Assembly: GCF_000971115.1 (NCBI RefSeq)
Contig: NZ_BBLV01000010.1
Location: forward strand, 1 to 64,000
DNA from: Demequina gelatinilytica
GTDB taxonomy: Bacteria; Actinomycetota; Actinomycetes; Actinomycetales; Demequinaceae
DNA length: 64,000 nucleotides
Direction of reading: 5' to 3'
Shown: one piece after another, positions 1 to 64,000 of the stretch
How the letters are laid out: each line of letters starts with the position of its first letter
Position numbering within the stretch: the stretch's first letter is position 1
Made by a program: the position numbers and the translations under genes
Notes under the pieces: model-generated
What the model was told of the DNA's origin: nothing
What the model saw: only the letters and a program-made list of their open reading frames with translations
Database searches by the model: none

Positions 1-641
1 CTCCCGCGGCGGTCGCGCCGGCTGCTGCGCCCATCGCCGCGCCCGCCGCCCCGCCCGCACCCGCGGGACCCCCGGCACCTGCGGCTGCAGCGCCCGCACC
101 CGCGTCGGTCGTGCCGGCTGTCGCATCGTCCATGCCGCCGCCCGCGCCGGCGCAGGCGGCCCCCGCCTCGACCCTGTGGTCGGGTCCCATCCCGGTCGCC
201 GCGCCTGCCGACGCGGCCCCCGAGACCGACGACGACTACGACGACGCCACCATCATGTCGCCGGTCGACGACGACGCGACCGTCCTGTCGTCGCGTCGCG
301 CCGCCACGCGGTGGGTGCTCGCGACGCTCGACGGCGCCACGTACGAGCTCCCCGCGCAGGGCGCGGTCGAGATCGGGCGCGCGAGCCGCGGACGTGTCGA
401 CGCTCCTGGGCGTCTCTTCATCACGGATCCCACGCGCACCATGTCGAAGAGCCACGTGCGCCTGAGGCGCGAGGGCGACGACTGGTTCGTCACCGACCTC
501 CAGTCGACCAACGGCACGGCGAAGCGCCCCTCCGAGGGCATGCGGACCGTCCTTGCTCCCGGTGAGGAGGTCCCGGTCGACGGCGTGCTCGAGCTGGGCG
601 ACCTCGAGGTCCGGGTGCGCCGGGCCGACGAGGAGGGCTGA
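1..641 (+). CDS. FHA-domain protein, 5'-truncated by window edge
   Basis: The frame is open from base 3, so the true start lies upstream. The visible N-terminal part is a Pro/Ala-rich linker, followed by an acidic stretch with DDYDDATIMS and DDDATVLS, then a forkhead-associated domain: VEIGR, the SKSHVRLRR core and the LQSTNGT loop that in this family contacts phosphothreonine. FHA proteins bind phosphopeptides made by Ser/Thr kinases. The DDAT motifs resemble those repeated in the next gene and may be kinase or FHA targets (inference). The stop is 4 bases before the PP2C start, so the two are probably co-transcribed in a Ser/Thr phosphorylation locus. The partner kinase is not in the window. 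Confidence 0.85.
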   Translation, partial: PAAVAPAAAPIAAPAAPPAPAGPPAPAAAAPAPASVVPAVASSMPPPAPAQAAPASTLWSGPIPVAAPADAAPETDDDYDDATIMSPVDDDATVLSSRRAATRWVLATLDGATYELPAQGAVEIGRASRGRVDAPGRLFITDPTRTMSKSHVRLRREGDDWFVTDLQSTNGTAKRPSEGMRTVLAPGEEVPVDGVLELGDLEVRVRRADEEG

Positions 642-645
642 GCCG

Positions 646-2004
646 GTGACCTCGCTGGGCGTGCGTGGCGCCGGTGCGACCGCGACCGGTCGCAGGCGCG
701 CGAACGAGGACAGCCTGCTTGCCGAGGCCCCGGCGTTCATCGTCGCCGACGGGATGGGCGGCCACGCCGCGGGCGCCGAGGCGAGCCTGGCGGTGGTCGA
801 GGCGTTCCGTCCGCTCGCGGGCCGTGACGATGTCGAGCCGGCCGAGGCCGCCGCCTGCGTGGAGCGCGCGCGCGAGGCCGTGAGCCGCGTCGCCGCGGTC
901 CACGGCGCCCAGTCGGGCTCGACCGTGACGGGTGCCGTCGGCGTGACGCTCGCGGGCGTGCCGTGGTGGCTGGTGCTCAACGTGGGCGACTCGCGGGTGT
1001 ACTCGTACGGTGCCGGCGTGCTCGAGCAGATCACGCGCGACCACTCAAGGGTGCAGGAGCTGGTGGATGCCGGGCACCTGTCGCCGGAGGAGGCCGAGCG
1101 GCACCCCGAGCGCAACGTCGTGACGCGCGCGATCGGCGACGGCGGCACCGGTGTCGACGTGTGGCTGGTCCCGCGACGCCGGGGACGCGCGCTGGTGGCG
1201 GTATCCGATGGGCTCGTCAAGGCCGTGTCGGATGCCCGGATCGGGCAGCTCCTCGCGCTCGGCGGCGAACCCGGAGCGCTTGCGCAGGGGCTCGTCGACG
1301 CGGCCGTGGCCGCGGGCGCGCGCGACAACGTCACCGTGGTGGTCGCCGGCTCCGACGCGCCCGAGACGCCCGCCGGAGCGGAGACCTACGGCTGGCCGTT
1401 GTGGACGGGCGCCGTGACGGACGATGCGCTGGCGGCCGCGGCCGCGGCATCGAAGCCCGAGGCCGCCCAGGCGCCGGCGGCGCCCGCCGGTCCGGGCGAG
1501 CCCCCGGGCACGGAGCCCGAATCGGAACCGGACGACGCGACCGTGGTGTCCGCGCGCCTGCGAGGCGAGCCGGAACCGGACGACGCGACCGTGGTCTCGG
1601 CGCGCCTGCGAGGCGAGCCGGAACCGGACGACGCGACCGTGGTCTCGGCGCGCCTGCGAGGCGAGCCGGACATGGAGCCGGACGATGCGACCGTGGTCTC
1701 GGCGCGGCTGCGAGGCGAGCCCGTGCCGACCGCGGCGCCGCCTGCATCGTCCGCTTCCGCGGCCGCCCCGCAGCCGCACGTCGCGATCCTCGAGAGGGAG
1801 GCTCCCGAGCGCATCACGGCCGAGCTCGTCCATGTGGTCGCGCCGCTGTCGGTCGCGCCGCTGCTCGAGCCGTCCGAGCGCGAGCGTCGCGTGCGCGCCA
1901 AGGCGCGCCGCGCCCGCGCGACCTGGGTCGGGGTGATCGCGGGCACGCTGCTGGCGATGGCCGGGCTGGCCGCGCTCGAGGTGTGGCTGATCAGCGCGCT
2001 CTGA
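646..2004 (+). CDS. PP2C-family Ser/Thr phosphatase with C-terminal membrane anchor
   Basis: A 452-aa protein starting at GTG 646; a purine-rich RBS overlaps the end of the FHA gene. The PP2C catalytic domain covers about residues 1-240, with the metal-binding NEDS and ADGMGGH motifs, DHS, SDGL and the RDNVTVVV end motif. Then comes a Pro/Ala linker with four near-identical EPDDATVVSARLRGEP repeats (about residues 294-359) and one hydrophobic C-terminal segment, predicted to anchor the protein with its catalytic domain in the cytoplasm. It should reverse Ser/Thr kinase phosphorylation. The repeats probably act as phosphothreonine docking or substrate sites for FHA partners (inference). Three GGACGATGC copies lie in the linker. 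Confidence 0.85.
   Translation: MTSLGVRGAGATATGRRRANEDSLLAEAPAFIVADGMGGHAAGAEASLAVVEAFRPLAGRDDVEPAEAAACVERAREAVSRVAAVHGAQSGSTVTGAVGVTLAGVPWWLVLNVGDSRVYSYGAGVLEQITRDHSRVQELVDAGHLSPEEAERHPERNVVTRAIGDGGTGVDVWLVPRRRGRALVAVSDGLVKAVSDARIGQLLALGGEPGALAQGLVDAAVAAGARDNVTVVVAGSDAPETPAGAETYGWPLWTGAVTDDALAAAAAASKPEAAQAPAAPAGPGEPPGTEPESEPDDATVVSARLRGEPEPDDATVVSARLRGEPEPDDATVVSARLRGEPDMEPDDATVVSARLRGEPVPTAAPPASSASAAAPQPHVAILEREAPERITAELVHVVAPLSVAPLLEPSERERRVRAKARRARATWVGVIAGTLLAMAGLAALEVWLISAL
1525..1722 (+). repeat. Four 48-bp in-frame repeats in the phosphatase linker
   Basis: Units start at 1525, 1573, 1621 and 1675, with a 6-bp insertion before the last. Each encodes 16 residues containing DDATVVSARL. 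Units 2 and 3 are almost identical in DNA, which suggests recent duplication. Units 1-3 use GAC GAC for the Asp pair; unit 4 uses GAC GAT and so creates the dispersed motif at 1680. Confidence 0.9.
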
Positions 2005-2013
2005 GGGGGGGGC

Positions 2014-2832
2014 TCAGTTGTCGTCGTGGCGCGTCCAGCGGAACGTGCGCACCGCGAGCACCAGCCCGACGACCACCCAGAGCGCCAGCACGGCGGCCGT
2101 GGCGGGGTGCTGCCAAGACCCGCTGGCCTCGGCCGCCTCGAAGCTCTCGGGCAGGAACACCGATCGCATGCCCTGCGCGAGCCACTTCAGCGGGAAGACC
2201 GCCGCGACGTGCTGCAGGAACGTCGGGATCTGCGTGTAGACCAGGAACACGCCCGAGGTGAACTGCAGGAACAGCACGATCGGCGTGATGATCGCCGAGC
2301 CGGCCTTGGCGTTCCTCAGCAGCGAGGACATCGCGATGCCGAGCGTGGTCGAGGCCGCGGTGCCGAGCAGGAACACCCACGTGAAGGTCCACCACCCCGA
2401 GCCCGACGGCAACGACGCGTCGTACATCGCGACACCGATCGCGACCAGGGCGGCGATCTGGACGACCGACACGATGAGCACCTGCGCGACCTTGGCCGCG
2501 AAGAAGGCGGTCGCAGGAAGCGGGGTCGCGTGGACGCGCTTGAGCACGTCCTCGTCGCGGTCGATCGCGATCGACATGGCAAGGGACTGGAAGCCGGTGT
2601 TGAGGATGCCCGAGGCGACCATGCCCGGCAGGAAGTACTGGGCGAAGGACACGCCGTCCGCGATCTCCTGACCCCCGAACACCGACCCGAAGAGCAGCAG
2701 CAGCATCATCGGGAAGAAGAAGATGAAGACCATCTGCTCGCGGCTGCGCAGGAACTCCTTGAGCTCGACTCCCAGCCGGCTCCGGGCCATGGCGGTCCAC
2801 GCGGGCGCGGACGATGCGCTGGTGGCGGTCAT
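2014..2832 (-). CDS. ABC-2 type transporter permease
   Basis: A 272-aa membrane protein. A short cytoplasmic N-terminus (with ELKEFLRSREQM) is followed by about six hydrophobic segments, such as MVFIFFFPMMLLLLFGSVF and the C-terminal TAAVLALWVVVGLVLAV. This is the ABC-2 (YhhJ/DrrB-like) exporter fold. Its start overlaps the stop of the ATPase gene by 4 bases, so the pair is translationally coupled and forms one transporter. The substrate cannot be read from sequence; related systems export drugs, lipids or polysaccharide. One dispersed motif lies at the N-terminus, encoding the Ala-Ser-Ser in TATSASSAPA. The gene converges with the phosphatase gene, with about 9 bases between stops. Confidence 0.85.
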   Translation of the reverse strand: MTATSASSAPAWTAMARSRLGVELKEFLRSREQMVFIFFFPMMLLLLFGSVFGGQEIADGVSFAQYFLPGMVASGILNTGFQSLAMSIAIDRDEDVLKRVHATPLPATAFFAAKVAQVLIVSVVQIAALVAIGVAMYDASLPSGSGWWTFTWVFLLGTAASTTLGIAMSSLLRNAKAGSAIITPIVLFLQFTSGVFLVYTQIPTFLQHVAAVFPLKWLAQGMRSVFLPESFEAAEASGSWQHPATAAVLALWVVVGLVLAVRTFRWTRHDDN

Positions 2833-3710
2833 GCTGCGGCCCCCTCGGCCTGGCTGGTGCCCGCGGTGCCCGCGGCCTCCCCGATCAGCTGCAGGTAGAC
2901 GTCCTCGAGCGAGGGGTGGACCACCTCGAGGCCCTCGACCTCGCCCTCGGTACGCGCGAGGATCTCGCGCAGCAGCGCGGTCGGCGTCGCGGTCTCCTCG
3001 GTCCGGGACGTACCGGCCTCGGTCCAGGTGACCCGCGCATCGGCCGCGCGCGAGCGCAGGCCGCCGGGCGTGTCGAGCGCGACCATGCGGCCGGCGGCGA
3101 TGATGCCGATGCGGTCCGCGAGGTGGTCGGCCTCGTCCAGGTAGTGGGTGGTGAGGAGGATCGTGGTGCCGTCCTCGCGGAGCGACTCGATGAGGGTCCA
3201 GAACTGTCGGCGCGCCTCGGGGTCGAAGCCCGTGGTCGGCTCGTCGAGGAACACCAGCTCGGGCCGGCCGATCACGGCGAGCGCGACGTCGAGGCGCCGC
3301 CGCTGGCCCCCCGACAGGGTCGCGGGCTTCGCCCCGGCCTTCTCCGCGAGCCCCACGGCGTCGAGCGTCGCGTCGACGTCCCGCGGGTGCGCGTAGAGGC
3401 TCGCGGCGTAGCGGAGCGACTCGCGCGCGGTCAGGGCGCCGTGCTCCGAGGTGCCCTGCAGCATGATGCCCAGGCGCGAGCGCCAGCCCTTGGTGGCGTG
3501 CTGGGGGTCCGCCCCGAGGACGGTGACGTCCCCCGCGGTGCGCTTGCGGAAGCCCTCGAGGATCTCGACGGTGGTGGACTTGCCGGCACCGTTGGGGCCG
3601 AGCAGGGCGAAGACCTCGCCCTGAGGGATCTCGAGGTCGAGCCCGTCGACGGCGGCCAGGTCGCCGTAGTGCTTGCGCAGGCCCTCGATGCGGATGGCCG
3701 GTTCGCTCAT
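2829..3710 (-). CDS. ABC transporter ATP-binding protein
   Basis: A 293-aa ATPase with all the NBD motifs in order: Walker A GPNGAGKST, Q-loop (IMLQGTSEH), signature LSGGQRRRLDVALA, Walker B ELVFLDEPTTGFD, and the H-switch TTH. A C-terminal extension after about residue 220 is typical of the DrrA/CcmA drug-export subfamily. I chose ATG 3710 because a TAGGCT -10 box on the minus strand ends 7 bases before it, giving a leaderless transcript; an upstream in-frame ATG at 3731 is possible. It powers the permease encoded immediately downstream. Confidence 0.85.
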   Translation of the reverse strand: MSEPAIRIEGLRKHYGDLAAVDGLDLEIPQGEVFALLGPNGAGKSTTVEILEGFRKRTAGDVTVLGADPQHATKGWRSRLGIMLQGTSEHGALTARESLRYAASLYAHPRDVDATLDAVGLAEKAGAKPATLSGGQRRRLDVALAVIGRPELVFLDEPTTGFDPEARRQFWTLIESLREDGTTILLTTHYLDEADHLADRIGIIAAGRMVALDTPGGLRSRAADARVTWTEAGTSRTEETATPTALLREILARTEGEVEGLEVVHPSLEDVYLQLIGEAAGTAGTSQAEGAAA

Positions 3711-3763: not shown

Positions 3764-3797
3764 AGGGGCGCATCGTCCACGTGGACGATGCGCCCCT
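3764..3797. terminator. 34-bp perfect palindrome of two motif copies
   Basis: Two head-to-head copies of the dispersed motif (3770-3778 and 3783-3791) form a perfect inverted repeat running from A3764 to T3797. It lies 22 bases beyond the aspartate aminotransferase stop (minus strand), so it probably acts as its transcription terminator. No long T-tract follows. It is also upstream of the ABC exporter start. Use of motif pairs as terminators is known for uptake sequences of Neisseria and Haemophilus. Confidence 0.7.
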
Positions 3798-3818: not shown

Positions 3819-5030
3819 CTACTGCGCGAGCAGCTTCTGGATGCGGGTCACGCCCTCGACCAGGTCCTCGTCGCCGAGCGCGTAGCTGAGGCGCAGGAAG
3901 CCCGACGGGCCGAACGCCTCGCCCGGCACCACGGCCACCTCGGCCTGCTCGAGGATCACGGTCGCGAGGTCCGCGGAGGACGTGATCTCCACGCCGCCGA
4001 CGGTGCGGCCGATGAGGCCCTCGACGCTCGGGTACGCGTAGAACGCGCCCTTGGGCGTCGGGCACACCACGCCGTCGATGGCGCGGAGCATCTCGACCAT
4101 GGTCCTGCGGCGGCGGTCGAACGCCTCGCGCATCTCGTGGACCGCCTCGAGGCCGCCCTCGAGCGCGGCGATCGCCGCGCGCTGCGCGACGTTCGACACG
4201 TTGGACGTGAGGTGGCTCTGGAAGTTGCTGGCGGCCTTGGTGACGTCCGCGGGGGAGACCATCCAGCCCACGCGCCATCCCGTCATGGCGTAGGTCTTGG
4301 CGACGCCGTTGACCACGATCGTCTGGTCGGCGAGCTCGGGGACCACGCGCAGGATCGGCGTGAAGACGGCGTCGTCGTAGACCAGGTGCTCGTAGATCTC
4401 GTCGGTGATGACCCAGATGCCGTGCTCGAGGGCCCATTCGCCGATCGCCTTGGTCTGCTCCTCGGTGTACACCGCGCCGGTCGGGTTCGACGGCGAGCAG
4501 AACAGGAGCGCCTTGGTCTGCTCCGTGCGCGCCGCCTCGAGCTGCTCGACGGTGACCAGGTAGCCCTGCTCCGCGCCCGCGAACACCTCGACGGGTGTGC
4601 CGCCGGCCAGCGAGATCGCCTCGGGGTAGGTGGTCCAGTACGGGGCGGGGAGCAGCACCTCGTCACCGGGGTCGACGATGCTCGCGAAGGCCTGGAACAC
4701 GGCCTGCTTGCCGCCGTTGGTGACGATGACGTTCGCCGGGTCGATCTCGTAGCCCGAGTCGCGCAGGGTCTTCGCCGCGATCGCCTTCTTCAGCTCGGGC
4801 AGACCCGTCGCGGGCGTGTAGCGGTGGTTGCGGGGGTCGGAGACCGCCGCGGCGGCGGCCTCGACGATGAAGTCCGGGGTGGGGAAGTCGGGCTCGCCGG
4901 CACCGAACCCGATGACGGGACGGCCGGCGGCCTTGAGGGCCTTCGCCTTGGAGTCGACGGCGAGGGTGGCGGACGGCGCGATGGCGCCGAGACGAGCGGA
5001 GACGCGGCGAGAGGGCTTCATGCTGGTCAT
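3819..5030 (-). CDS. aspC: Class I PLP aminotransferase, probable aspartate/prephenate aminotransferase
   Basis: A 403-aa fold-type I aminotransferase. Visible motifs are [12 protein letters not shown] near the N-terminus, the APYWTTYPE substrate and PLP region, the [10 protein letters not shown] loop, [11 protein letters not shown] carrying the PLP-nitrogen Asp and the Tyr, and the Schiff-base Lys in [13 protein letters not shown]. The sequence fits subgroup Ib aspartate or prephenate aminotransferases, which move amino groups between aspartate, glutamate and keto acids. An in-frame ATG at 5021 is an alternative start. The gene stands alone between the ABC exporter and tRNA-Trp and ends at the 34-bp palindrome. 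The aspC name is by family; the true substrate range is not determined. Confidence 0.85.
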
Positions 5031-6934: not shown

Positions 6935-7633
6935 ATGACCAAGCGCTCCAAGGCCTACCGCGACGCAGCCCAGCTCGTCGACCGTAGCCAGCTCTACTCG
7001 CCGCTCGAGGCTCTCCGCCTCGCGCAGAAGACGGCCTCCAAGAAGACGGACTCGACCATCGACGTCGTCTTCAAGCTGGGCGTCGACCCCCGTCACGCGG
7101 ACCAGATGGTCCGTTCCACCGTCATCCTGCCGAACGGCACCGGCAAGACCGCCAGGGTCCTGGTCTTCGCCAACGGTGACAAGGCAGAGGCTGCCCGCGA
7201 GGCGGGCGCCGACATCGTCGGTGGCGACGAGCTCATCGAGGAGGTGGCCGCCGGCCGCCAGGACTTCGACGCCGTCGTGGCGACGCCCGACCTCATGGGC
7301 AAGGTCGGCCGCCTGGGCCGCGTGCTCGGCCCCCGTGGCCTCATGCCGAACCCCAAGACCGGCACCGTGACGATGGACGTGGTCAAGGCCGTGTCCGACA
7401 TCAAGGGTGGAAAGATCGAGTTCCGCGTCGACAAGCACGCCAACCTGCACACCGTGCTGGGCAAGGCGTCGTTCGGCGACCAGAAGCTGCTCGAGAACTT
7501 CCAGGCCGTGCTCGACGAGGTCCTCCGCGCCAAGCCGTCCGCCTCGAAGGGCCGTTACATCGTGAAGGCCGCGATCTCCGCGACGCAGGGCCCCGGCATC
7601 CCGCTGGACGCCCTCGCGAAGTCCGAGGCGTAA
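6935..7633 (+). CDS. rplA: 50S ribosomal protein L1
   Basis: A 232-aa protein. The frame is open back to 6884, but ATG 6935 follows AAAGGAAG and begins the conserved [11 protein letters not shown]. Family motifs are [14 protein letters not shown], the GGDELIEEV loop, [21 protein letters not shown] (partly quoted: [15 protein letters not shown]) and [18 protein letters not shown]1 forms the mobile stalk near the E-site and in many bacteria represses the rplKA mRNA. It is followed by two hairpins. Confidence 0.97.
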
Positions 7634-7697: not shown

Positions 7698-7727
7698 CGC
7701 ATCGTCCATTTGCATCTGGACGATGCG
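7698..7727. repeat. Inverted pair of dispersed motifs upstream of rplJL
   Basis: An 11-bp inverted repeat (7698-7708 and 7717-7727) with an 8-base loop, each arm containing one motif copy. It overlaps the predicted rplJ promoter: the loop carries the -35 hexamer and the right arm fills the spacer. It may be a second terminator arm for rplKA, a protein-binding site, or neither. Confidence 0.8.
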
Positions 7728-7966: not shown

Positions 7967-8488
7967 ATGGCGACGCCAGACAAGGTGAACGCTGTTGCAG
8001 AGCTCGCGGACGACTTCCGCGACTCCGCGGCGGTGCTGATCACCGAGTACCGCGGCCTCTCCGTCCCGCAGCTTGCGAAGCTGCGCGGTGAGCTCCGTGG
8101 CGCCGCGACCTACAAGGTCGCGAAGAACACTCTGACGGCGCTCGCGGCCAAGGACGCCGGCATCGAGGGTCTTGACGACCTTCTCGTCGGCCCCACGGCC
8201 ATCGCGTTCGTCACCGGTGACCCGGTGGAGGCCGCGAAGGGTCTCAAGGCTTTTGCCAAGGAGAACGACAAGCTCGTCATCAAGGGCGGCGTTCTCGAGG
8301 GCAAGGTGATCTCCGCTGATGAGGTCAAGAAGCTGGCGGACCTCGAGTCCCGCGAGGTTCTGCTCGCCAAGGCAGCCGGCGCTATGAAGGCGTCGCTCTT
8401 TGGTGCTGCATACATGTTCCAGGCGCCGCTGGCTCAGGCCGCGCGTGCCGTCGACGCCCTGCGTGCGAAGCAGGAAGACGCAGCCTGA
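7967..8488 (+). CDS. rplJ: 50S ribosomal protein L10
   Basis: A 173-aa protein of normal length. ATG 7967 follows GAAGGAAGGA. The N-terminal domain contains the conserved [20 protein letters not shown] region and YKVAKNTL; the C-terminal helix binds L7/L12 dimers. L10 anchors the L12 stalk and probably feeds back on its own leader. rplL follows after 60 bases. Confidence 0.97.
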
Positions 8489-21274: not shown

Positions 21275-22222
21275 GTGGCAAGCGTCCTGACCCGAGCCGA
21301 ACGGCTCGCCCGATCCATCGCCGTGTGGGACCCGCACCGCGACACCGCCCACGCCTCGCTCCTGAGCGGCAGCGGCCGCTCGGGCACCACGTGGCTCATG
21401 GAGGCGTACTCGCGTGCGGGACGCCTGCGGCCCATCTTCGAGCCGATCCGACCGGACCTCGACGCACGCTTCAGCGACCTCAGGCCGGGTCGCTTCGTCC
21501 CCGTGGACGCGCCGCGCCTGCCCGCGCAGGAGGCCGTCGAGGACGTCCTGACCGGGCGCTCGCGTCACCCGTGGGCGGACCAGGAGGCGTCGCTCAACCC
21601 GTTCACGCGGTACGAGGGACGGCTCATCAAGGAGATCCGCTTCCCCATGTGGGCGGGCTGGGTCGCGCGCCGGCACCCCGACGTGCGCATCGTCCACGTC
21701 ATCCGCCACCCGCTCGCGACCCTGAGCAGCCAGAGCGTGCTCGGGTGGACGCCCGACCGGCTCCACTACATGCTCGCCCAACCCGAGCTGGTGGACGGCC
21801 TCCTCGGCGACCTCGCCCTGGACAGCCTCGCGCTCGAGGACGATGCCACCGCGCTGGTCGCGCGATGGGCCGTGGAGAACCTCGCGGCGGCACGCACCTA
21901 CGGCGGCGACCGCACGGCCCTCGTCTCGTACGACGTGGCGGTCGAGGACCGGTCCGAGCTCGCGGACGGAGCCGCCTGGCTCGGCATCCCCGCCGCACGG
22001 CTCACCGACCTCGAGCGGCCGTCGAAGATGACGCACGCGAAGGGTTCCAACGCCCATGCGGGCAAGGACCCTCGTGCGTGGATGAAGCGGATCAGCCCCG
22101 AGCAGCAGTCGGCCGCGGGGCGGGTCCTCGAGGTCGTGGGTCTCGCGGACGCGTTCCCGTTGGACGGGACGGTCGACCGCGCCGCGCTTCAGCGGTGGTG
22201 GGACGGGGAGGGACGCGGCTGA
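21275..22222 (+). CDS. Sulfotransferase-family protein
   Basis: A 315-aa protein with the PAPS-dependent sulfotransferase signature: a 5'-phosphosulfate loop LLSGSGRSGTTWLMEA near residue 30 and the 3'-phosphate region VRIVHVIRHPLATLSSQ near residue 150. It would transfer sulfate from PAPS to an unknown acceptor, perhaps a carbohydrate or lipid. The GTG 21275 start sits 6 bases after TAGCGT, suggesting leaderless expression. It interrupts the str-S10 neighbourhood and converges, with 10 bases between stops, on the next gene. It carries one dispersed motif (LEDDAT). Confidence 0.75.
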   Translation: MASVLTRAERLARSIAVWDPHRDTAHASLLSGSGRSGTTWLMEAYSRAGRLRPIFEPIRPDLDARFSDLRPGRFVPVDAPRLPAQEAVEDVLTGRSRHPWADQEASLNPFTRYEGRLIKEIRFPMWAGWVARRHPDVRIVHVIRHPLATLSSQSVLGWTPDRLHYMLAQPELVDGLLGDLALDSLALEDDATALVARWAVENLAAARTYGGDRTALVSYDVAVEDRSELADGAAWLGIPAARLTDLERPSKMTHAKGSNAHAGKDPRAWMKRISPEQQSAAGRVLEVVGLADAFPLDGTVDRAALQRWWDGEGRG

Positions 22223-34187: not shown

Positions 34188-34750
34188 TGCGCGCAGTTCT
34201 TCTTGGTCCCCCCGGCGCCGGCAAGGGCACGCAGGCCGCCCGTCTCACGGAGCGGTTCGGCGTCCCCGCGATCTCCACTGGCGACATCTTCCGTGCCAAC
34301 GTCAAGGGCGGCACGGAGCTGGGCCGCAAGGCGCAGGAGTACATGAACGCCGGCCAGCTGGTCCCCGACGAGGTGACGAACGCCATGGTGCGTGCGCGCC
34401 TCGCCGAGGACGATGCGGCTCAGGGCTTCCTGCTCGACGGCTACCCGCGCAACCCCGAGCAGGCGGTCGAGCTCGACACGATGCTGGCCGACCTGGGCGT
34501 CGAGCTCGACGTGGCGATCGAGATCACGGCGGACTTCGACGTGGTCACCGAGCGCCTGCTCAAGCGTGCCGAGATCGAGGGCCGCGCGGACGACACCGAG
34601 CCGGTGATCCGCAAGCGTCTCGAGGTCTACACCGCGTCCACCGCTCCGCTCACCGCGTTCTACGCGGGCAAGGGCCTGCTGGTGCAGGTCGACGGGCTCG
34701 GCGAGATCGACGAGGTCACCGAGCGCCTCGTCGCGGCCGTCGCGCGCTGA
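34187..34750 (+). CDS. adk: Adenylate kinase
   Basis: A 187-aa short-form enzyme (no zinc/LID insertion, as in Mycobacterium). P-loop LLGPPGAGKGTQAARL, the AMP-site STGDIFRANV, LLDGYPRN, and RAEIEGRADDTEPVIRKRL in place of the long LID. It interconverts ATP + AMP and 2 ADP. The ATG overlaps the secY TAA. One dispersed motif encodes Glu-Asp-Asp-Ala-Ala. Confidence 0.96.
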   Translation: MRAVLLGPPGAGKGTQAARLTERFGVPAISTGDIFRANVKGGTELGRKAQEYMNAGQLVPDEVTNAMVRARLAEDDAAQGFLLDGYPRNPEQAVELDTMLADLGVELDVAIEITADFDVVTERLLKRAEIEGRADDTEPVIRKRLEVYTASTAPLTAFYAGKGLLVQVDGLGEIDEVTERLVAAVAR

Positions 34751-35596: not shown

Positions 35597-35668
35597 GCGC
35601 CGTTTGCGGCGCATCGTCCCTGGTGAAGGCGCGAATGCTGTTCACACAGCGTTTACACGCGCGCCTTC
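35597..35668 (+). other. Structured gap after map
   Basis: A 6-bp hairpin GCGCCG-TTTG-CGGCGC (35597-35612) abuts a dispersed motif copy (35611-35619). It is followed by a 9-bp inverted repeat (35625-35633 with 35660-35668) around an AT-richer loop TGTTCACACAGCGTTTACA. Likely the map terminator region plus the start of the next promoter; no clean boxes are visible apart from TAGCCT near 35692. Confidence 0.4.
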
Positions 35669-40667: not shown

Positions 40668-41522
40668 ATGCTCCCTGAGACTGTGCGGGCCCGCCTCGAC
40701 CTTTCCTACGACGGCACCGGCTTCAGCGGCTGGGCGACCCAGCCCGGGCTCCGTACCGTCCAGGGCGTCCTCGAGGACGCCCTCGCGCGCATCGTCCGCC
40801 AGGAGGCACAGCCCCGCGTGACGGTCGCCGGCCGCACCGACGCCGGCGTCCACGCCCGCGGCCAGGTCGCCCACGTCGACCTCGACGCGCAGGCCTGGGC
40901 GCGCATGCCCGGGCGGTCCGACCGCGCGCCCGCGGCCGGGCTGCTCACGCGCCTCAACGGCGTGCTCCCGGACGATGTGGTCGTCCGGTCCGTGTCCGTG
41001 GCCCCGGAGGGCTTCGACGCCCGTTTCTCCGCGACCCAGCGCCGCTACGCGTACCGGGTCACCGACGCGGTCCCGGATGTGCTGCAACGTCGCCACGTGG
41101 TCGCGGTGAGCCGCCCGCTCGACGTGGACGCGCTCAACGCCGCATCGTCGACGCTCACCGGGCTGCGCGACTTCGCGGCGTTCTGCCGTGGTCGCGAGGG
41201 TGCGACCACCATCCGCGACCTGCTCGAGCTGAGCTGGCGCCGTGAGAGCGACGGCCCGGATGCGGGGCTGGTGGTCGCGACGGTGCGCGCCGACGCGTTC
41301 TGCCACTCCATGGTGCGGTCGCTGGTCGGCGCGCTGCTCGCCGTGGGGGAGGGGCGTCGCGACCTCGACTGGCTCGCGGTCGTCGCGGCCTCGGAGGGCC
41401 GCTCGCAGGCGATCGCGGTCGCTCCGGCGCATGGCCTCACGCTCGAGGAGGTCTCCTACCCGGACGATGCGCTGCTCGCCGCGCGCGCGGAGGCTACGCG
41501 AGGGCGGCGCACGCTTCCGTGA
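40668..41522 (+). CDS. truA: tRNA pseudouridine(38-40) synthase
   Basis: A 284-aa enzyme starting at ATG 40668. The nucleophilic Asp is in [34 protein letters not shown] and the C-terminal [20 protein letters not shown] are also diagnostic. It makes pseudouridine in the tRNA anticodon arm. Two dispersed motifs lie within, one (40789) encoding Arg-Ile-Val, the only in-gene copy not read as Asp-Asp-Ala or Ala-Ser-Ser. Confidence 0.93.
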
Positions 41523-41578: not shown

Positions 41579-41704
41579 GGTGCGTCGTTGTGCGTTCCCT
41601 CGTGGACGGTGCCTCCCACTCGCCGCCGCAGGACCCGCCGACCGATTGCTTCGCGATGCCTCCACGGCATCGTCCACCAGAACGAGTAGAAGTAAGGCTT
41701 CACA

Positions 41705-42667: not shown

Positions 42668-44029
42668 ATGGCGCGACTTTTCGGCACGGACGGTGTCCGG
42701 GGCCTCGCGAACCGCGATCTCACAGCGGAGCTCGCCGTCGACCTCTCGGTCGCGGCGGCTCACGTCCTGGGGGAGCGGGGCGAGTTCTCCGGCCACCGTC
42801 CCGTGGCCGTCATCGGCCGCGACACCCGCATCTCAGGCGAGTTCCTGGGAGCGGCTGTCGCGGCCGGTCTTGCTTCCGCGGGGGTCGACGTCCTCGACCT
42901 CGGCGTGGTGCCCACCCCCGCGGTGGCGTACCTGACCGCCTCCACCGAGGCGGACCTGGGCGTGGTGATCTCCGCGTCCCACAACGCCATGCCGGACAAC
43001 GGCATCAAGTTCTTCGCGCGCGGTGGCCACAAGCTCGACGACTCGGTCGAGGCGGCCATCGAGGCCCGCGTGGGCGAGGCGTGGTCCCGGCCCGTCGGCG
43101 CCGATGTCGGCCGGATCGTCCCGTCCGCGCACCTGGCCGACGAGTACGTCGAGCACGTGGTCGCGTCCGTGCGGTCCTTCGCCGGCTCGGACACGCCGCT
43201 CGAAGGCGTGCACATCGTGGTCGACGCGGCGCATGGCGCGGCCTCGCAGGTGGGCCCTGCGGCGCTCGCCAAGGCCGGCGCCCGCGTCACCGCCATCAAC
43301 GCGGAGCCGGACGGGCTCAACATCAACGAGGGCGTGGGCTCGACCCACCTGGGCCCGCTGCAGGCCGCCGTGCTCGAGCACGGCGCCGACCTGGGCGTGG
43401 CGTTCGACGGCGACGCGGACCGCTGCCTTGCGGTGGACCACACCGGCGCGGTCGTCGACGGCGACCAGATCATGGGCGTGCTGGCCATCGCGATGCGCGA
43501 CGCGGGCTCGCTCTACCACTCGACGCTCGTGGCGACCGTCATGAGCAACCTGGGCCTGCACCTCGCGATGCGGCGCGCGGGGATCGACATGGTCGAGGCG
43601 GCCGTCGGGGACCGCTACGTGCTCGAGGCGATGCGCGAGGGCGGCTACACGCTCGGCGGTGAGCAGTCGGGGCACCTCATCGTCGCGGACTACGCGACCA
43701 CGGGCGACGGCGTCCTCACGGCGCTGCTCATGACGTCGCAGGTCGCGGCGCGCGGCTCGCTGCGGGATCTCTGCGCGGACATCGAGTCCCTGCCGCAGGT
43801 GCTCGTGAACGTCCGCGGCGCCGACCGTTCACGCGTCTACACGGACCTCGCGCTGCAGGCGGCCGTCGCATCGTCCCGCAGGGAGCTGGGCGACACCGGC
43901 CGCGTGCTGCTGCGCCCGTCGGGCACGGAGCCGCTGGTGCGCGTCATGGTCGAGGCCGCGACCGCCGAGGAGGCGCAGCGCCATGCCGACGCCCTCGCGG
44001 AGGTCGTCCGCACGCGGCTCAGCCTCTAG
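42668..44029 (+). CDS. glmM: Phosphoglucosamine mutase
   Basis: A 453-aa enzyme that converts glucosamine-6-P to glucosamine-1-P for UDP-GlcNAc synthesis. FGTDGVRG start, the phosphoserine loop [19 protein letters not shown], the metal-binding [17 protein letters not shown], and the phosphate loop [18 protein letters not shown] (42655-42660) ends 7 bases before ATG 42668, so a leaderless promoter probably overlaps the rpsI stop. GlmS (46881) supplies its substrate. A dispersed motif encodes Ala-Ser-Ser in a variable surface region. Confidence 0.96.
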
Positions 44030-44196
44030 CGCTCCCCCCGCGACAGTCCCAACGGACCTGGTCCCGGCACGCCGGGCGAAGGGCGGGATCGGGCGTCGAG
44101 CGTTGGCGTGTCGCGGTGAGTTCCGTTGGCACTGTCAGGGTGTATCCGGGGATCACCCCATCGCGGCGGCCTCGGACACCTGCCAGACTTGGCCGC

Positions 44197-44940: not shown

Positions 44941-45811
44941 CCCGGGCGGCACCGAGGCGGACGTCGCGTACCCGGAGGCGCGCGACGCCAACCTCGCGAA
45001 CTGGGAGGATCGCGTCCCGCTCCACACCGAGGCGTACGGCCTCGAGCGCTACCGGGACGACCCCGCGCATCTGTCCCAGGTGGTCCGCACGGACCTGGAC
45101 GCGCTGCGGCGGTTCCTGCCCGACGGGCTCGCGGGCCTCGACGTGTGCCACCTCCAGTGCCACATCGGCACCGACACCGTCTCCTTGGCCCGCGCCGGAG
45201 CCGCGCGCATCGTCGGCGTCGACTTCTCACCTGCCGCCCTCGAGGCCGCCTCGGCGCTCGCGCGCGAGCTGGGCATCGATGCCGCGTGGGTCCGGACCGA
45301 TGTGCTGGACGCCAAGGCGGCCGTCGACGCCGCGCTCGGCGGCGACCAGCGCTTCGACGTGGTCTACACGAGCATCGGCACCATCACGTGGCTGCCCGAC
45401 CTCGCGCGCTGGGCCGCCCAGATCGCGGGTCTCCTGCGCCCGGGCGGGATCTTCTACATCCGCGACGGCCACCCGGCGCTGTACGCGCTCGACGAGACGG
45501 CCGACGGCCTGGCGACGCGCTACCCGTACTTCGGCGACGGCGCGCCGCTCGCGTGGGACGAGGAGACCACGTACGTGGGCGACGGCAAGGTCGCGAGCAC
45601 GCGCACCTACGAGTGGCCGCACCCGCTCAGCGAGATCGTCGGGGTCCTGCTGGGGGCGGGCCTGGAGCTGGTGGCGCTCGAGGAGGGCCGGACGCTGCCG
45701 TGGCGCTTCGCGGAGCGCATGGTCGAGCGCGAGGACGGCGACTTCGAGTGGCCGGGGGACGATGCGCGGCGCATGCCCTGCACGTTCACCGTGGTCGCGA
45801 GGGCGCGGTAG
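44927..45811 (+). CDS. Class I SAM-dependent methyltransferase
   Basis: A 294-aa protein; ATG 44927 lies 8 bases after GGAGGG, inside the end of the DedA gene. The Rossmann core is clear: LDVCHLQCHIGTDTVSLARA (motif I), RIVGVDFSPAALEAA (motif II with acidic end), FDVVYTSIGTITWLPDL (motif IV) and LLRPGGIFYIRDGHPAL. The substrate is unknown; small-molecule methylation is likely. One dispersed motif encodes Gly-Asp-Asp-Ala near the C-terminus. Its stop is one base from the coaA stop on the other strand. Confidence 0.85.
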   Translation: MMPTDPGGTEADVAYPEARDANLANWEDRVPLHTEAYGLERYRDDPAHLSQVVRTDLDALRRFLPDGLAGLDVCHLQCHIGTDTVSLARAGAARIVGVDFSPAALEAASALARELGIDAAWVRTDVLDAKAAVDAALGGDQRFDVVYTSIGTITWLPDLARWAAQIAGLLRPGGIFYIRDGHPALYALDETADGLATRYPYFGDGAPLAWDEETTYVGDGKVASTRTYEWPHPLSEIVGVLLGAGLELVALEEGRTLPWRFAERMVEREDGDFEWPGDDARRMPCTFTVVARAR

Positions 45812-46769: not shown

Positions 46770-46880
46770 CCGCCCATTGTGGCGCATCGTCCCCGGCAGG
46801 ACGAGGCGCGCGCACGGCGACGGTGCGCCGCCCTGTCGCCCTGCGCGGAGGCGGGGGGTGCGGGAACTAGACTCGTCGCC

Positions 46881-49102: not shown

Positions 49103-50208
49103 TGTCGCGTCTCAACGTGTCCGTCGACCATGGCGCGATCGCGCGCAACGTATCGCGGCTCGCCGCGATGGCGCCGAGGTCGGCCGTCATGGCCGTGGTG
49201 AAGGCCGACGCCTACGGCCACGGCCTGGTCGGGGCGGCCGCCGCCGCGCGCGAGGGCGGGGCGGCATGGCTCGGCGTCGCGCAGCCCGACGAGGCGCTCG
49301 CGCTGCGCGCCGCCGGTGACACGGGACGCCTCCTGTGCTGGCTCTACGGCCCCGAGTTCCCCGCGCGCGGGCTCATCCGCGCGGGGGTGGACCTCAGCGC
49401 ATCGTCGCTCGAGGTGCTCGATGTCATCATCGCCGCCGCACGCATGTCCGGGGAGCGCGCCAGGGTGCACGTGGCCATCGACACCGGGCTGTCGCGCGAG
49501 GGCGTGCGTCCCGAGGCGTTGCCCGCCCTGCTCGACGCCGCGCGCGCGGCGGACGATGCGGTCGAGCTGGTAGGCGCGTGGTCCCACCTCGCGTGGGCCG
49601 ACCGCCCCGGCGACCCGACCATCGACCGCCAGGCGTCCGTGTTCCGTGCCGCGCTCGCGGTCATCGAGGACCGGGGGATCGCGCTCGAGGTCCGTCACCT
49701 CGCGAACTCCGCCGCGACGCTCACGCGCCCGGACCTCCACTTCGACCTCGTGCGTCCCGGCATCGCCGTGTACGGGCTGCCGCCGGTGCCCGATGCCGAG
49801 GGCGGCGACTGGGGCCTCGAGCCCGCGATGCGCGTCACCGCGTCGCTCGCGCTGGTGAAGGACGTGCCGGCAGGCGAGGGCGTGAGCTACGGCCACGAGT
49901 ACACCACCCCGCGCGACACGCGCCTGGGGCTGGTCACCGCCGGCTACTCGGACGGGATCTTCCGCAGCGCGGGCAACGGGCGCGGACCGGTGTCCGTGGG
50001 CGGCCGCGAGCTCCGCATCGCAGGCCGCGTGTGCATGGACCAGGTGGTGCTCGACCTGGGGCCCGGCGCGACCGAGCGCGCGGGGGACGAGGTGGTGCTC
50101 ATCGGCGCCGACGGCCCCTCCGCTCGCGACTGGGCCGAGGCCGCGGGCACCATCGACTACGAGATCGTGTGCCGCTTCGGCGGGCTGAAGCAGAAGGAAG
50201 CAGCATGA
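49102..50208 (+). CDS. alr: Alanine racemase
   Basis: A 368-aa PLP enzyme giving D-alanine for peptidoglycan. The PLP Lys is in VMAVVKADAYGHG; the second catalytic Tyr is in GEGVSYGHEYTTPRDTRLG; CMDQVVLDLG and the N-terminal TIM barrel are also present. Part of a glmS-acpS-alr-tsaE-tsaB-rimI run with overlapping ends, so one transcript is likely. A dispersed motif encodes Asp-Asp-Ala in a loop. Confidence 0.95.
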   Translation: MSRLNVSVDHGAIARNVSRLAAMAPRSAVMAVVKADAYGHGLVGAAAAAREGGAAWLGVAQPDEALALRAAGDTGRLLCWLYGPEFPARGLIRAGVDLSASSLEVLDVIIAAARMSGERARVHVAIDTGLSREGVRPEALPALLDAARAADDAVELVGAWSHLAWADRPGDPTIDRQASVFRAALAVIEDRGIALEVRHLANSAATLTRPDLHFDLVRPGIAVYGLPPVPDAEGGDWGLEPAMRVTASLALVKDVPAGEGVSYGHEYTTPRDTRLGLVTAGYSDGIFRSAGNGRGPVSVGGRELRIAGRVCMDQVVLDLGPGATERAGDEVVLIGADGPSARDWAEAAGTIDYEIVCRFGGLKQKEAA

Positions 50209-53560: not shown

Positions 53561-55200
53561 TGCGCGCGGCCGCCGCGGGGGCGGTCGCGGTGCTGCTACT
53601 CGCGGCCTGTACCGCGAGCGGGGAGGACGATGAGCCCACGCCGGGTCCGTCGCCGTCCCCCTCCGTGACGGCTGCGGCACCCCTGCCGGCCGCCACGGCA
53701 TCGGCCCTGCCCGCCCCGATCGCCACCGTCGACGTCGAGCGCCTGGCCTGGGGGCCCACGCTCGCCCAGTGGGACGAGGCGCTCGCGACGGCGCGCTCCC
53801 TGCCGCTGGCGCACGCGGCCGGCCAGGTGATCGTCACCGACCTCTACACGCCCGATGTCGAGGTGGCCGTCGACCGCGTGCGACGCCATCACCTCGGCGG
53901 CGTCATCCTCATGGACGGCGCGGCGCCGTCCGCCGATGCGGTGTCGGCTCTCGCCGCTGCGCTCGACGACGTCGACGACCGCTCATGGCCCGTGTGGATC
54001 TCCGCCGACGAGGAGGGCGGCCTGGTCTCGCGGCTGTCCGCGGCGGTCCCCAGCCTGGCCTCGTTCATGGCCGCCGGCGCCGCGACGGACAAGGGAGCCG
54101 TCACGTCCGCGTACCGGGCCTCCGCGGGTGACATGCGTGCGCTGGGCGTGAACGTGGACTACGCGCCCGTCGCGGACGTCACCATCGGCACGGCGGACCC
54201 GATCATCCGGACGCGGAGCGCGGGGGACCGCCCGAAGGCGGTCGCGAGGACCGTGACAGCGGCGGTCGAGGGCTTCGTGGCGGGCGGCCTCGTCCCGGTG
54301 ATCAAGCACTTCCCGGGCCACGGCTCCGTCACCGTCGACTCGCACGTGGGCCTGCCGGTGCAGGACCGCTCCGTGGAGCGGCTCGCGCGTGCGGACCTGG
54401 TGCCTTTCGCCGAGGCGATCGATGCCGGCGCACCTGCGGTGATGATGGGGCACATCGTGGTGCCCGAGTGGGGCGAGGAGGCGGCGACCTTCGAGCCTCG
54501 CGCGTACGGCTACCTTCGCGACGAGCTCGGCTTCACGGGGGCGATCATCACGGATGCCCTCAACATGGGCGCCGTCACGGGCTCACGCGACTCGGGACAG
54601 GCGGCGGTGGACGCCCTCGCTGCCGGGGCCGACGTGCTCCTCATGCCCCGGAACGCGGGAGACGCGGCCGAGGCGATCGTGGAGGCGGTGCGCACCGGTC
54701 GGGTGACGCGGGACCGGCTCGACGAGGCCGCGGCGCGTTCGATCCTGCTCATGCGGTGGTCGGCGGGGCTCGACACGGCGGTGCCGGCGCAGGGTTACGC
54801 GCGGGCGTTCGCCGCGGCCGGCATGACGGTGGCGACCGAGGACTGCGATGCTCCGCTGCTCGGACGGAAGGTCAGCATCGTCTCCGGTCCGGACGATGCA
54901 CGGGCCGCGCTCGCGACCCGGCTCGAGGACGCGGGCGTCGAGGTCGGCGACGCGGGCACCACGATCGCGCTCGTCGCCTCGGGCCGGATGCACGCGACCG
55001 CCGACGTGGTGGTGTCGCTCGGCGCGCCGTGGGGGATCTTCGCATCCGACGCGGAGACGTACATCGCGACGTACGGCAGCTCCCGTCCGACCATCGCGGC
55101 GCTCGCGGACGTGCTCACGGGAGCTGCGGAGGCGGGTGGGGACTGGCCGGTCACCATGAGCGCCGCGCCGTTCGCCGCGTGCGCGGTCAGCTCGGGCTGA
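53560..55200 (+). CDS. Lipoprotein glycoside hydrolase family 3, NagZ-like
   Basis: A 546-aa exported lipoprotein. Residues 1-16 form a signal peptide ending in lipobox LLAAC (Cys17), then a Pro/Ser linker. The GH3 N-domain carries ISADEEGGLVSRL, IKHFPGHGSVTVDSHVGLP (the His-Asp pair loop of NagZ enzymes) and catalytic Asp in IITDALNMGAV. A C-terminal domain of about 150 residues is extra compared with cytoplasmic NagZ. It probably removes N-acetylglucosamine from muropeptides at the cell surface (inference). It overlaps tsaD by one base and its 3' end overlaps lysG on the other strand by 14 bases. One dispersed motif encodes Pro-Asp-Asp-Ala. Confidence 0.88.
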   Translation: MRAAAAGAVAVLLLAACTASGEDDEPTPGPSPSPSVTAAAPLPAATASALPAPIATVDVERLAWGPTLAQWDEALATARSLPLAHAAGQVIVTDLYTPDVEVAVDRVRRHHLGGVILMDGAAPSADAVSALAAALDDVDDRSWPVWISADEEGGLVSRLSAAVPSLASFMAAGAATDKGAVTSAYRASAGDMRALGVNVDYAPVADVTIGTADPIIRTRSAGDRPKAVARTVTAAVEGFVAGGLVPVIKHFPGHGSVTVDSHVGLPVQDRSVERLARADLVPFAEAIDAGAPAVMMGHIVVPEWGEEAATFEPRAYGYLRDELGFTGAIITDALNMGAVTGSRDSGQAAVDALAAGADVLLMPRNAGDAAEAIVEAVRTGRVTRDRLDEAAARSILLMRWSAGLDTAVPAQGYARAFAAAGMTVATEDCDAPLLGRKVSIVSGPDDARAALATRLEDAGVEVGDAGTTIALVASGRMHATADVVVSLGAPWGIFASDAETYIATYGSSRPTIAALADVLTGAAEAGGDWPVTMSAAPFAACAVSSG

Positions 55201-56138: not shown

Positions 56139-56756
56139 ATGACGTATCTCGCCGGCCTGGGCCTCGGACTGTCGCTCATCGTCGCGATCGGCGCGCAGAA
56201 CGTGTTCGTCCTGCGCCAGGGCCTGCGTCGCGAGCACGTGGGGCTGGTGGTGCTCATCTGCGCGGCGTCCGATGCCGTGCTCATCGCGGTGGGCGTCGCG
56301 GGGCTGGGCGCGGCCATCGTCGCCGTGCCGTGGCTGCTCTCGGCCGCCCGGTGGGCCGGTGCCGCCTTCCTCGCTGTCTACGCCGTCCTGGCGGCGCGGC
56401 GCGCGCTCAGCGCCGCCGGAGAGCGTCTCGATGCGGACGATGCGCCTCGCGCGGGAGGCGCCGCGGCATCGTCCCCACGCGCGGTCGCCGCGACGTGCCT
56501 CGCGCTGACCTGGCTCAACCCTCACGTGTACCTCGACACCGTCGTGCTGCTCGGCACGGTCGCGGCGACCCATGAGGCGAGGTGGCTGTTCGCCGCCGGG
56601 GCGGTCACGGGCAGCATCCTGTGGTTCGCGGGACTGGGCTACGGCGCGCGGCTGCTCTCGGGGGTGCTCGCGCGTCCCGGGGCCTGGCGGGTCCTCGATG
56701 GAGCCGTCGCGCTGGTGATGGCGGGGATCGCGGTGTCGCTCATCGTCGCGGGCTGA
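56139..56756 (+). CDS. lysE: LysE-family basic amino acid exporter
   Basis: A 205-aa membrane protein with about six hydrophobic segments: GLGLGLSLIVAIGAQNVFVL (with the conserved GAQN), IVAVPWLLSAARWAGAAFL and the LTWLNPHVYLDTVVLLGTV family motif. It exports lysine or arginine. The hydrophilic loop at about residues 92-118 contains two inverted dispersed motifs (56435 and 56466) encoding Asp-Asp-Ala and Ala-Ser-Ser. Confidence 0.92.
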   Translation: MTYLAGLGLGLSLIVAIGAQNVFVLRQGLRREHVGLVVLICAASDAVLIAVGVAGLGAAIVAVPWLLSAARWAGAAFLAVYAVLAARRALSAAGERLDADDAPRAGGAAASSPRAVAATCLALTWLNPHVYLDTVVLLGTVAATHEARWLFAAGAVTGSILWFAGLGYGARLLSGVLARPGAWRVLDGAVALVMAGIAVSLIVAG

Positions 56757-59136: not shown

Positions 59137-59181
59137 CGGCGGCCCGTCCCTCGTCCGGTCTGGACGATGCACGGGCCGCCG
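59137..59181. terminator. Nested hairpin containing a dispersed motif, groES/whiB gap
   Basis: An outer 11-bp stem (59137-59147 with 59171-59181) encloses an inner TCGTCC/GGACGA stem (59151-59156 with 59162-59167) formed by the motif copy at 59162-59170. It lies 7 bases beyond the whiB stop and likely ends whiB transcription on the minus strand. Confidence 0.6.
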
Positions 59182-59479: not shown

Positions 59480-61433
<1,954 letters not shown>

Positions 61434-63678: not shown

Positions 63679-64000
63679 CTAGAAGAGGGAGTCCTGACCC
63701 GAGCCGCCGGCCTCCGCGGACGATGCGGGCGCTGCCAGGGCGAGCGCGGGTGCGGCCACGGGCCAGATCGGGTCGGGAAGGTCGTCCGTGGTCCCCTTGG
63801 ACTTGAGCCAGGCGCCGAAGCGCACGGCCCAGTCATGGTGCGCGGACGCCTGGAGGTCGTGGAGCGAGTCCAGCGACGTGCTGCGCATGGTCGGGTGCGC
63901 CGCCGCGAGCGCCTGGACCAGCTCGAGCGTCGCGAGCACATCGGCATCCGCCGCGTGGAGGTCGTCCGCCTCCACCGTGACCGCGTAGAGCGTGCACAGG
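63679..64000 (-). CDS. DnaQ-type 3'-5' exonuclease, C-terminal part
   Basis: The last 107 codons of a gene running off the window. The frame includes LYAVTVEADDLHAADADVLA, with HAADAD fitting the ExoIII motif (HxAxxD) of the DEDDh family, followed by a helix (TLELVQALAA) and a C-terminal tail ending GGSGQDSLF. Likely an epsilon-like or RNase T-like nuclease. The dispersed motif at 63718 encodes Ala-Ser-Ser in the tail. The 107 bases between it and gdh hold the gdh start region; nothing else is visible. Confidence 0.65.
   Translation of the reverse strand, partial: LCTLYAVTVEADDLHAADADVLATLELVQALAAAHPTMRSTSLDSLHDLQASAHHDWAVRFGAWLKSKGTTDDLPDPIWPVAAPALALAAPASSAEAGGSGQDSLF

Follow-up and report, generated by a model that had tools for sequence, protein, structure and literature searches.

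Inverted copies of an abundant, uptake-sequence-like motif form a perfect palindrome and putative terminator behind an aminotransferase gene of Demequina gelatinilytica

The 34-bp perfect palindrome that follows an aminotransferase gene of Demequina gelatinilytica is most likely the terminator of this gene, built from inverted copies of a motif found throughout the genome, and sequence comparisons suggest that this motif serves primarily as a DNA uptake sequence (probability about 0.7). As a terminator made from an uptake-sequence-like motif, it is apparently the first in a Gram-positive phylum. Sequence comparisons also make it probable that Demequina, a monoderm actinobacterium, possesses the first DNA uptake sequence system beyond the Neisseriaceae and Pasteurellaceae, with at least three dialects in the genus, an independent origin and a convergent use of the motif in terminators. 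The palindrome was studied in a window of 64,000 nucleotides, the whole stretch of DNA analysed (64 kb, GC content 70%), of the 3.23-Mb host genome; the features of the window are listed in Table 1.

The palindrome, AGGGGCGCATCGTCCACGTGGACGATGCGCCCCT, is identical to its own reverse complement, with 17 bp per arm and the loop absent, and is composed of two inverted copies of GCATCGTCC embedded in a longer stem. It is the longest perfect palindrome of the window (the runner-up has 22 bp); simple arithmetic for 70% GC gives an expectation of about 5e-5 perfect 34-bp palindromes per 64 kb (0.29^17 x 64,000), in agreement with an earlier note on this DNA, which held a random palindrome of this kind to be very unlikely. 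The same note had placed a perfect dyad directly 3' of the aminotransferase stop and motif copies at 3770 and 3783; both statements proved accurate, the dyad starting 21 nt 3' of the stop codon (3819-3821, minus strand) and the motif scan recovering one copy on each strand at these positions. The closest named aminotransferase, 93% identical, is that of Demequina rhizosphaerae. The next minus-strand gene encodes an ABC ATPase, whose ATG (3708-3710) lies about 53 nt downstream of the dyad; the longest open reading frame of the ATPase begins within the palindrome (ATG 3771-3773), and translation more probably starts at 3708-3710. The minus-strand RNA of the dyad region is predicted to fold with an energy of -44.5 kcal/mol, versus -30.6 +/- 3.1 for shuffled sequences (z -4.5). 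The U tail 3' of the hairpin, UUCCUC, is weak and is not the U-rich tail of an intrinsic terminator; a simple T-run terminator scan missed the dyad because it requires a run of T.

Table 1. Motif copies, the palindrome and neighbouring genes in the 64-kb window
Feature	Position	Strand	Basis or remark
Perfect 34-bp palindrome, putative (bidirectional) U-poor intrinsic terminator hairpin	3764..3797	.	sequence, fold, relatives
Uptake-like motif GCATCGTCC, left arm	3770..3778	+	motif scan
Uptake-like motif GCATCGTCC, right arm, inverted	3783..3791	-	motif scan
Aspartate/PLP-dependent aminotransferase, gene upstream of the putative terminator	3819..5030	-	
DrrA-like ABC transporter ATPase, gene downstream of the putative terminator	2829..3710	-	
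DrrB-like ABC transporter permease	2014..2832	-	
Motif copy, left arm of the second inverted pair, between putative rplA (6935-7633) and rplJ (7967-8488)	7699..7707	+	gene names by position and sequence
Motif copy, right arm of the second inverted pair	7718..7726	-	hairpin 65 nt past the putative rplA stop
Single motif copy	123..131	+	
Single motif copy, coding	1419..1427	-	
Single motif copy, coding	1680..1688	-	
Single motif copy, coding	1744..1752	+	
Single motif copy, coding	2809..2817	-	
Single motif copy, coding	21687..21695	+	
Single motif copy, coding	21838..21846	-	
Single motif copy	34408..34416	-	
Single motif copy, intergenic	35611..35619	+	46 nt past a stop codon
Single motif copy	40789..40797	+	
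Single motif copy	41462..41470	-	
Single motif copy, intergenic	41667..41675	+	
Single motif copy	43868..43876	+	
Single motif copy	45757..45765	-	
Single motif copy, intergenic (divergent)	46784..46792	+	
Single motif copy	49551..49559	-	
Single motif copy	54891..54899	-	
Motif copy, coding, half of a wide inverted pair	56435..56443	-	
Motif copy, coding, half of a wide inverted pair	56466..56474	+	
Single motif copy, intergenic	59162..59170	-	
Single motif copy	61011..61019	+	
Single motif copy	63718..63726	-	

A genome-wide search for close inverted pairs of GCATCGTCC, defined as inverted copies with at most 20 nt between them, revealed 30 pairs, 14 in the order seen at 3764-3797 ('+-') and 16 in the order '-+'; simple arithmetic from the genome-wide motif density and the intergenic bias predicts about 3-4 pairs per order by chance. 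Of these, 19 are intergenic; each follows at least one stop codon, usually by no more than 40 nt, and divergent regions contain none of them. Divergent regions make up 29% of intergenic bases in the sample, and therefore the absence of all 19 pairs from them has a chance of about 0.002. This is the census that the earlier note had proposed as a check, and the intergenic pairs fell where the note expected them, behind genes. Perfect stems of at least 10 bp were found at 44 of 202 gene 3' ends and in none of 58 divergent regions (sample), so U-poor hairpins look like the terminators of this genome. The second inverted pair of the window (7699-7726) could act in the leader region of L10.

A hairpin 3' of the aminotransferase gene was found in 11 related genomes that carry the same motif, the weakest being that of G028, and covariation was assessed in an ungapped alignment of 12 sequences. 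Compensatory double changes occur in eight stem pairs, all within the outer ten, and the outer stem takes forms such as GGGGC/GCCCC, GGCCC/GGGCC, GGGGT/ACCCC and GGCCGT/ACGGCC. The nine motif pairs show no double change: apart from three C-to-U wobbles in one pair and a single mismatch in another, they are invariant. The outer stem thus covaries while the motif pairs stay put, which suggests that the stem is held for its pairing and the motif for its sequence. Together with the placement of the pairs, the compensatory changes in relatives support the proposal of the earlier note that the paired inverted motif may act as a terminator. In G001, a motif-poor genome, a different strong hairpin occupies the same place after the aminotransferase gene.

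The motif is 9-10 bp long, with the form (C)GCATCGTCC. The genome contains 1,350 copies of GCATCGTCC, versus 17 of a reversed control, and 26 copies are in the window; CGCATCGTCC has 943 copies in the same genome (G000). Statistics on genes and intergenic DNA were obtained from sampled host stretches (464 kb), partitioned with a gene caller built for this purpose. In these 464 kb, CGCATCGTCC is the most over-represented 10-mer (159 observed, 7.5 expected); GCATCGTCC is the commonest intergenic 9-mer of the sampled stretches (48 copies in 37.8 kb), and intergenic DNA, comprising 8% of the sampled DNA, yet holds 22% of the GCATCGTCC copies. Genic copies of GCATCGTCC use five of the six frames, 82 of them being in sense and 86 in antisense orientation. 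Genes contain 120 copies of CGCATCGTCC versus 17 +/- 3 after a synonymous shuffle that preserves protein and codon content, a 7-fold excess, and GCATCGTCC ranks first among all 9-mers for genic enrichment over this shuffle. Single-base variants of GCATCGTCC are much scarcer than GCATCGTCC itself in the sampled stretches, and the flanks of the copies are unrelated beyond 9-10 bp. The copies are balanced between the strands, without polarity, in the 464 kb of host genome covered, and a polar motif of the Chi/KOPS type was rejected on this ground. A USS of the Haemophilus type was rejected as well, the Haemophilus uptake motif AAGTGCGGT having a mere 2 copies in the host genome. An imperfect inverted repeat of about 80 bp, CAACGGA...GCGACACGCCGGG...CCGGCGTGTCGCGG...TCCGTTG, is also dispersed in the intergenic DNA of the host and is REP/MITE-like; it is located at C29:31251-31330, 184079-184150, 184864-184940 and 229185-229260 (loci L039, L047, L049), one arm is present at window position 44105, and its apical part often contains the uptake-like motif or a near match.

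A comparison of Demequina genomes indicates that the motif occurs in dialects. CGCATCGTCC is abundant, with 711-1,564 copies, in 15 of 44 genomes (maximum 1,564 in G006) and has 10-235 copies in the others, and each of 55 non-Demequina genomes of the family and order contains at most 60. GCATCGGCC is the dominant 9-mer in many of the remaining Demequina, with a maximum of 2,018 copies (G015), and ranks first among the pooled intergenic 9-mers of 12 genomes where it dominates; its statistics were derived from about 600 kb pooled from the 12 genomes, where an imperfect gene caller called 22% intergenic. AGCGTCGGGC has 908 copies in G009 and 254 in G012, and a weaker candidate word, GCGTCGGC, found in G003, is uncertain as a dialect. 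AACCGACACT is over-represented in G001 (L063-L067) and AACCCCGACA in G003 (L058-L062); these words may belong to a dispersed repeat. A word of comparable abundance was not found in four outgroup genomes; in one of them, G037 (L251-L255), a repeat around TGATCATGCAAT dominates the intergenic DNA, probably as a local array. On the tree of the aminotransferase gene, genomes of one dialect mostly cluster: ten CGCATCGTCC genomes form one group and five GCATCGGCC genomes another, with G028 and G004 placed outside the CGCATCGTCC group. The tree is that of one gene, with moderate support and three unplaceable sequences.

Matches to the pilT family were found in every Demequina genome searched and matches to comEC in nearly all, the sole genome without a comEC match being an incomplete assembly. 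The host type IV pilus operon encodes PilB, PilT, PilC, prepilins, PilD and PilM, followed by putative PilN and PilO, and the host also carries a comEA-comEC gene pair (comEA was read in the host only). The ComEC domain was matched in two pieces in G009 (L250) and G026; the split in G026 is likely an assembly error, because the aminotransferase of this genome is split too. G001, G012 and G027, which contain few motif copies, also carry pilT and comEC, so the machinery alone does not predict the motif. No receptor candidate linked to dialect emerged from a search among the minor pilins encoded in the pilus operon; these proteins have diverged greatly and show no grouping by dialect, and the two minor pilins of the host have no clear homologues in two dialect-1 genomes. 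The operon also contains an unusually large prepilin-like protein (623 aa; L231:12233-14104), which adjoins a 221-aa minor pilin; both are strongly divergent between species.

The evidence can be read in other ways. The pair might be a terminator while the motif has a different genome-wide function, as a Chi- or HIP1-like recombination or repair signal, a nucleoid or segregation mark or a methylation-linked site; any abundant motif could be recruited into hairpins as convenient material, and both the failure to find a receptor among the minor pilins of the pilus operon and the retention of the pilus and comEC in motif-poor Demequina would suit such a function. It is nevertheless rather unlikely, since the motif lacks the orientation bias of Chi or KOPS and, unlike HIP1, is non-palindromic, and since its largely clade-following dialects, inverted pairs at 3' ends and intergenic bias match uptake sequences in every testable point (PMC3630211, PMC12616744). 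It is very improbable that the hairpin is an ordinary terminator and the motif a codon-usage artefact of a GC-rich genome, present in the stem by chance. Many strong gene-end hairpins of the host are indeed without the motif, and ATC GTC is plausible, by judgement only, as a common codon pair, but the artefact is contradicted by the excess of the 10-mer over the synonymous shuffle and by the intergenic census, where the motif is the top 9-mer; such a density was also not seen in the 55 genomes outside the genus, and the motif arms are fixed while the outer stem covaries.

The palindrome could also be the operator at which a regulator controls the DrrAB-like ABC transporter genes downstream, as it lies about 53 nt upstream of the ATPase start codon and a perfect dyad is typical of dimeric repressors; the covariation disfavours this, the outer half-sites varying freely with compensation in relatives, as expected of RNA pairing but not of a DNA half-site with a fixed sequence, and with the same motif pairs found after many other genes and a different hairpin at the same place in motif-poor G001, the chance of an operator appears slight. 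Equally slight is the chance that the motif copies are what is left of a mobile palindromic repeat of the REP/MITE kind, dispersed over the genome: the separate element of about 80 bp does carry the motif in its loop, but the motif copies have no related flanks, are mostly single and in many cases genic, which fits no inserted element.

A terminator made from copies of a DNA uptake sequence thus remains the preferred reading, and a possible course of events can be suggested. The aminotransferase transcript would form a hairpin of high stability, almost without a loop and followed by a weak U tail, resembling other strong gene-end hairpins of the host genome, and transcription would terminate there. 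Extracellular DNA bearing the motif would be preferred by a putative receptor of the type IV pilus and ComEA-ComEC machinery, repeated rounds of transformation and recombination would spread and maintain the motif, and intergenic motif pairs would later have been co-opted as terminators, as in Neisseriaceae and Pasteurellaceae. We infer termination at the dyad and sequence-specific uptake with a receptor from computed features, namely the palindrome, the over-representation of the motif and its independence of codon usage, the placement of the pairs after stop codons, the covariation, the dialects and the pilus and comEA-comEC genes. If true, this would be a third, independent case, implying that sequence-marked uptake evolves repeatedly, that an outer membrane is not needed for it and that it again spills over into terminators. 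Close relatives within Demequina with differing dialects or hardly any copies would provide a natural series for finding the receptor, and the same series would suit asking whether uptake bias alone drives the accumulation of the motif.

Known DNA uptake sequences (DUS and USS) are motifs of 9-12 bp that recur hundreds to thousands of times, have dialects in line with phylogeny and are often arranged as inverted pairs in terminators (PMC3630211, PMC2397512, PMC12616744, PMC1852404), the use of such pairs as terminators having several precedents (PMC1852404, PMC2397512, PMC3630211). Sequence-marked transformation has been called unique to Neisseria and Pasteurellaceae, two proteobacterial families (PMC3630211), and a prior report of uptake sequences in actinobacteria was not found among the open-licence papers searched. 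The Demequina motif shares with DUS and USS a high copy number, an excess beyond protein and codon content, intergenic enrichment, the absence of strand polarity, inverted pairs at gene 3' ends and clade-specific dialects, and the host has a type IV pilus with PilT, ComEA and ComEC; the host, being Demequina, belongs to neither Neisseriaceae nor Pasteurellaceae, and for this taxonomic, not mechanistic, reason the motif is not filed as a plain member of the DUS/USS class. The analogy with Haemophilus and Neisseria drawn in the earlier note accordingly stands for copy number, intergenic bias, dialects and competence genes and fails for the host, which is unrelated, and for the motif itself, given the near absence of AAGTGCGGT.

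A close likeness in detail is to the DUS of Neisseriaceae, with the ComP receptor and dialects (PMC3630211): the motif is on the 10-bp scale, with hundreds to about 2,000 copies and an intergenic excess, close inverted pairs form known or putative terminators, dialects differ by a few bases and follow phylogeny, and a type IV pilus is present (PMC3630211). In contrast to Neisseriaceae, Demequina belongs to the Gram-positive Actinomycetota, its motif is unrelated, and a ComP orthologue was not identified. The USS of Pasteurellaceae, AAGTGCGGT and ACAAGCGGT (PMC12616744, PMC1626085), are similar in having a 9-bp core, about 1,000 or more copies, two or more clade-specific types, terminator pairs and copies that are partly in genes; in H. 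influenzae, 65% of USS are in ORFs versus 86% coding sequence (as quoted in PMC2346458), and the corresponding values for the Demequina host are 78% and 92%. Unlike these USS, the Demequina motif shows no AT-rich extension, AAGTGCGGT has its 2 copies only, and the monoderm host is without an outer membrane and its uptake step. Within the same phylum, Micrococcus luteus is naturally competent by means of Flp pili and likewise has comEA/comEC, as described in review passages (PMC6370729) that mention no uptake sequence; its pili are of the Tad/Flp type, unlike the PilB/PilT/PilC-type T4P operon of Demequina. Concerning termination itself, the motif is found in about 1 in 7 strong gene-end hairpins here (6 of 44, sample), versus about 55% of such terminators in Neisseria (PMC1852404). 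The uptake terminators of Neisseria have long stems and fewer U (PMC1852404), and the palindrome behind the aminotransferase gene resembles the uptake-sequence terminators identified with TransTermHP (PMC1852404) in having closely spaced complementary motifs as its stem, a long stem and few U.
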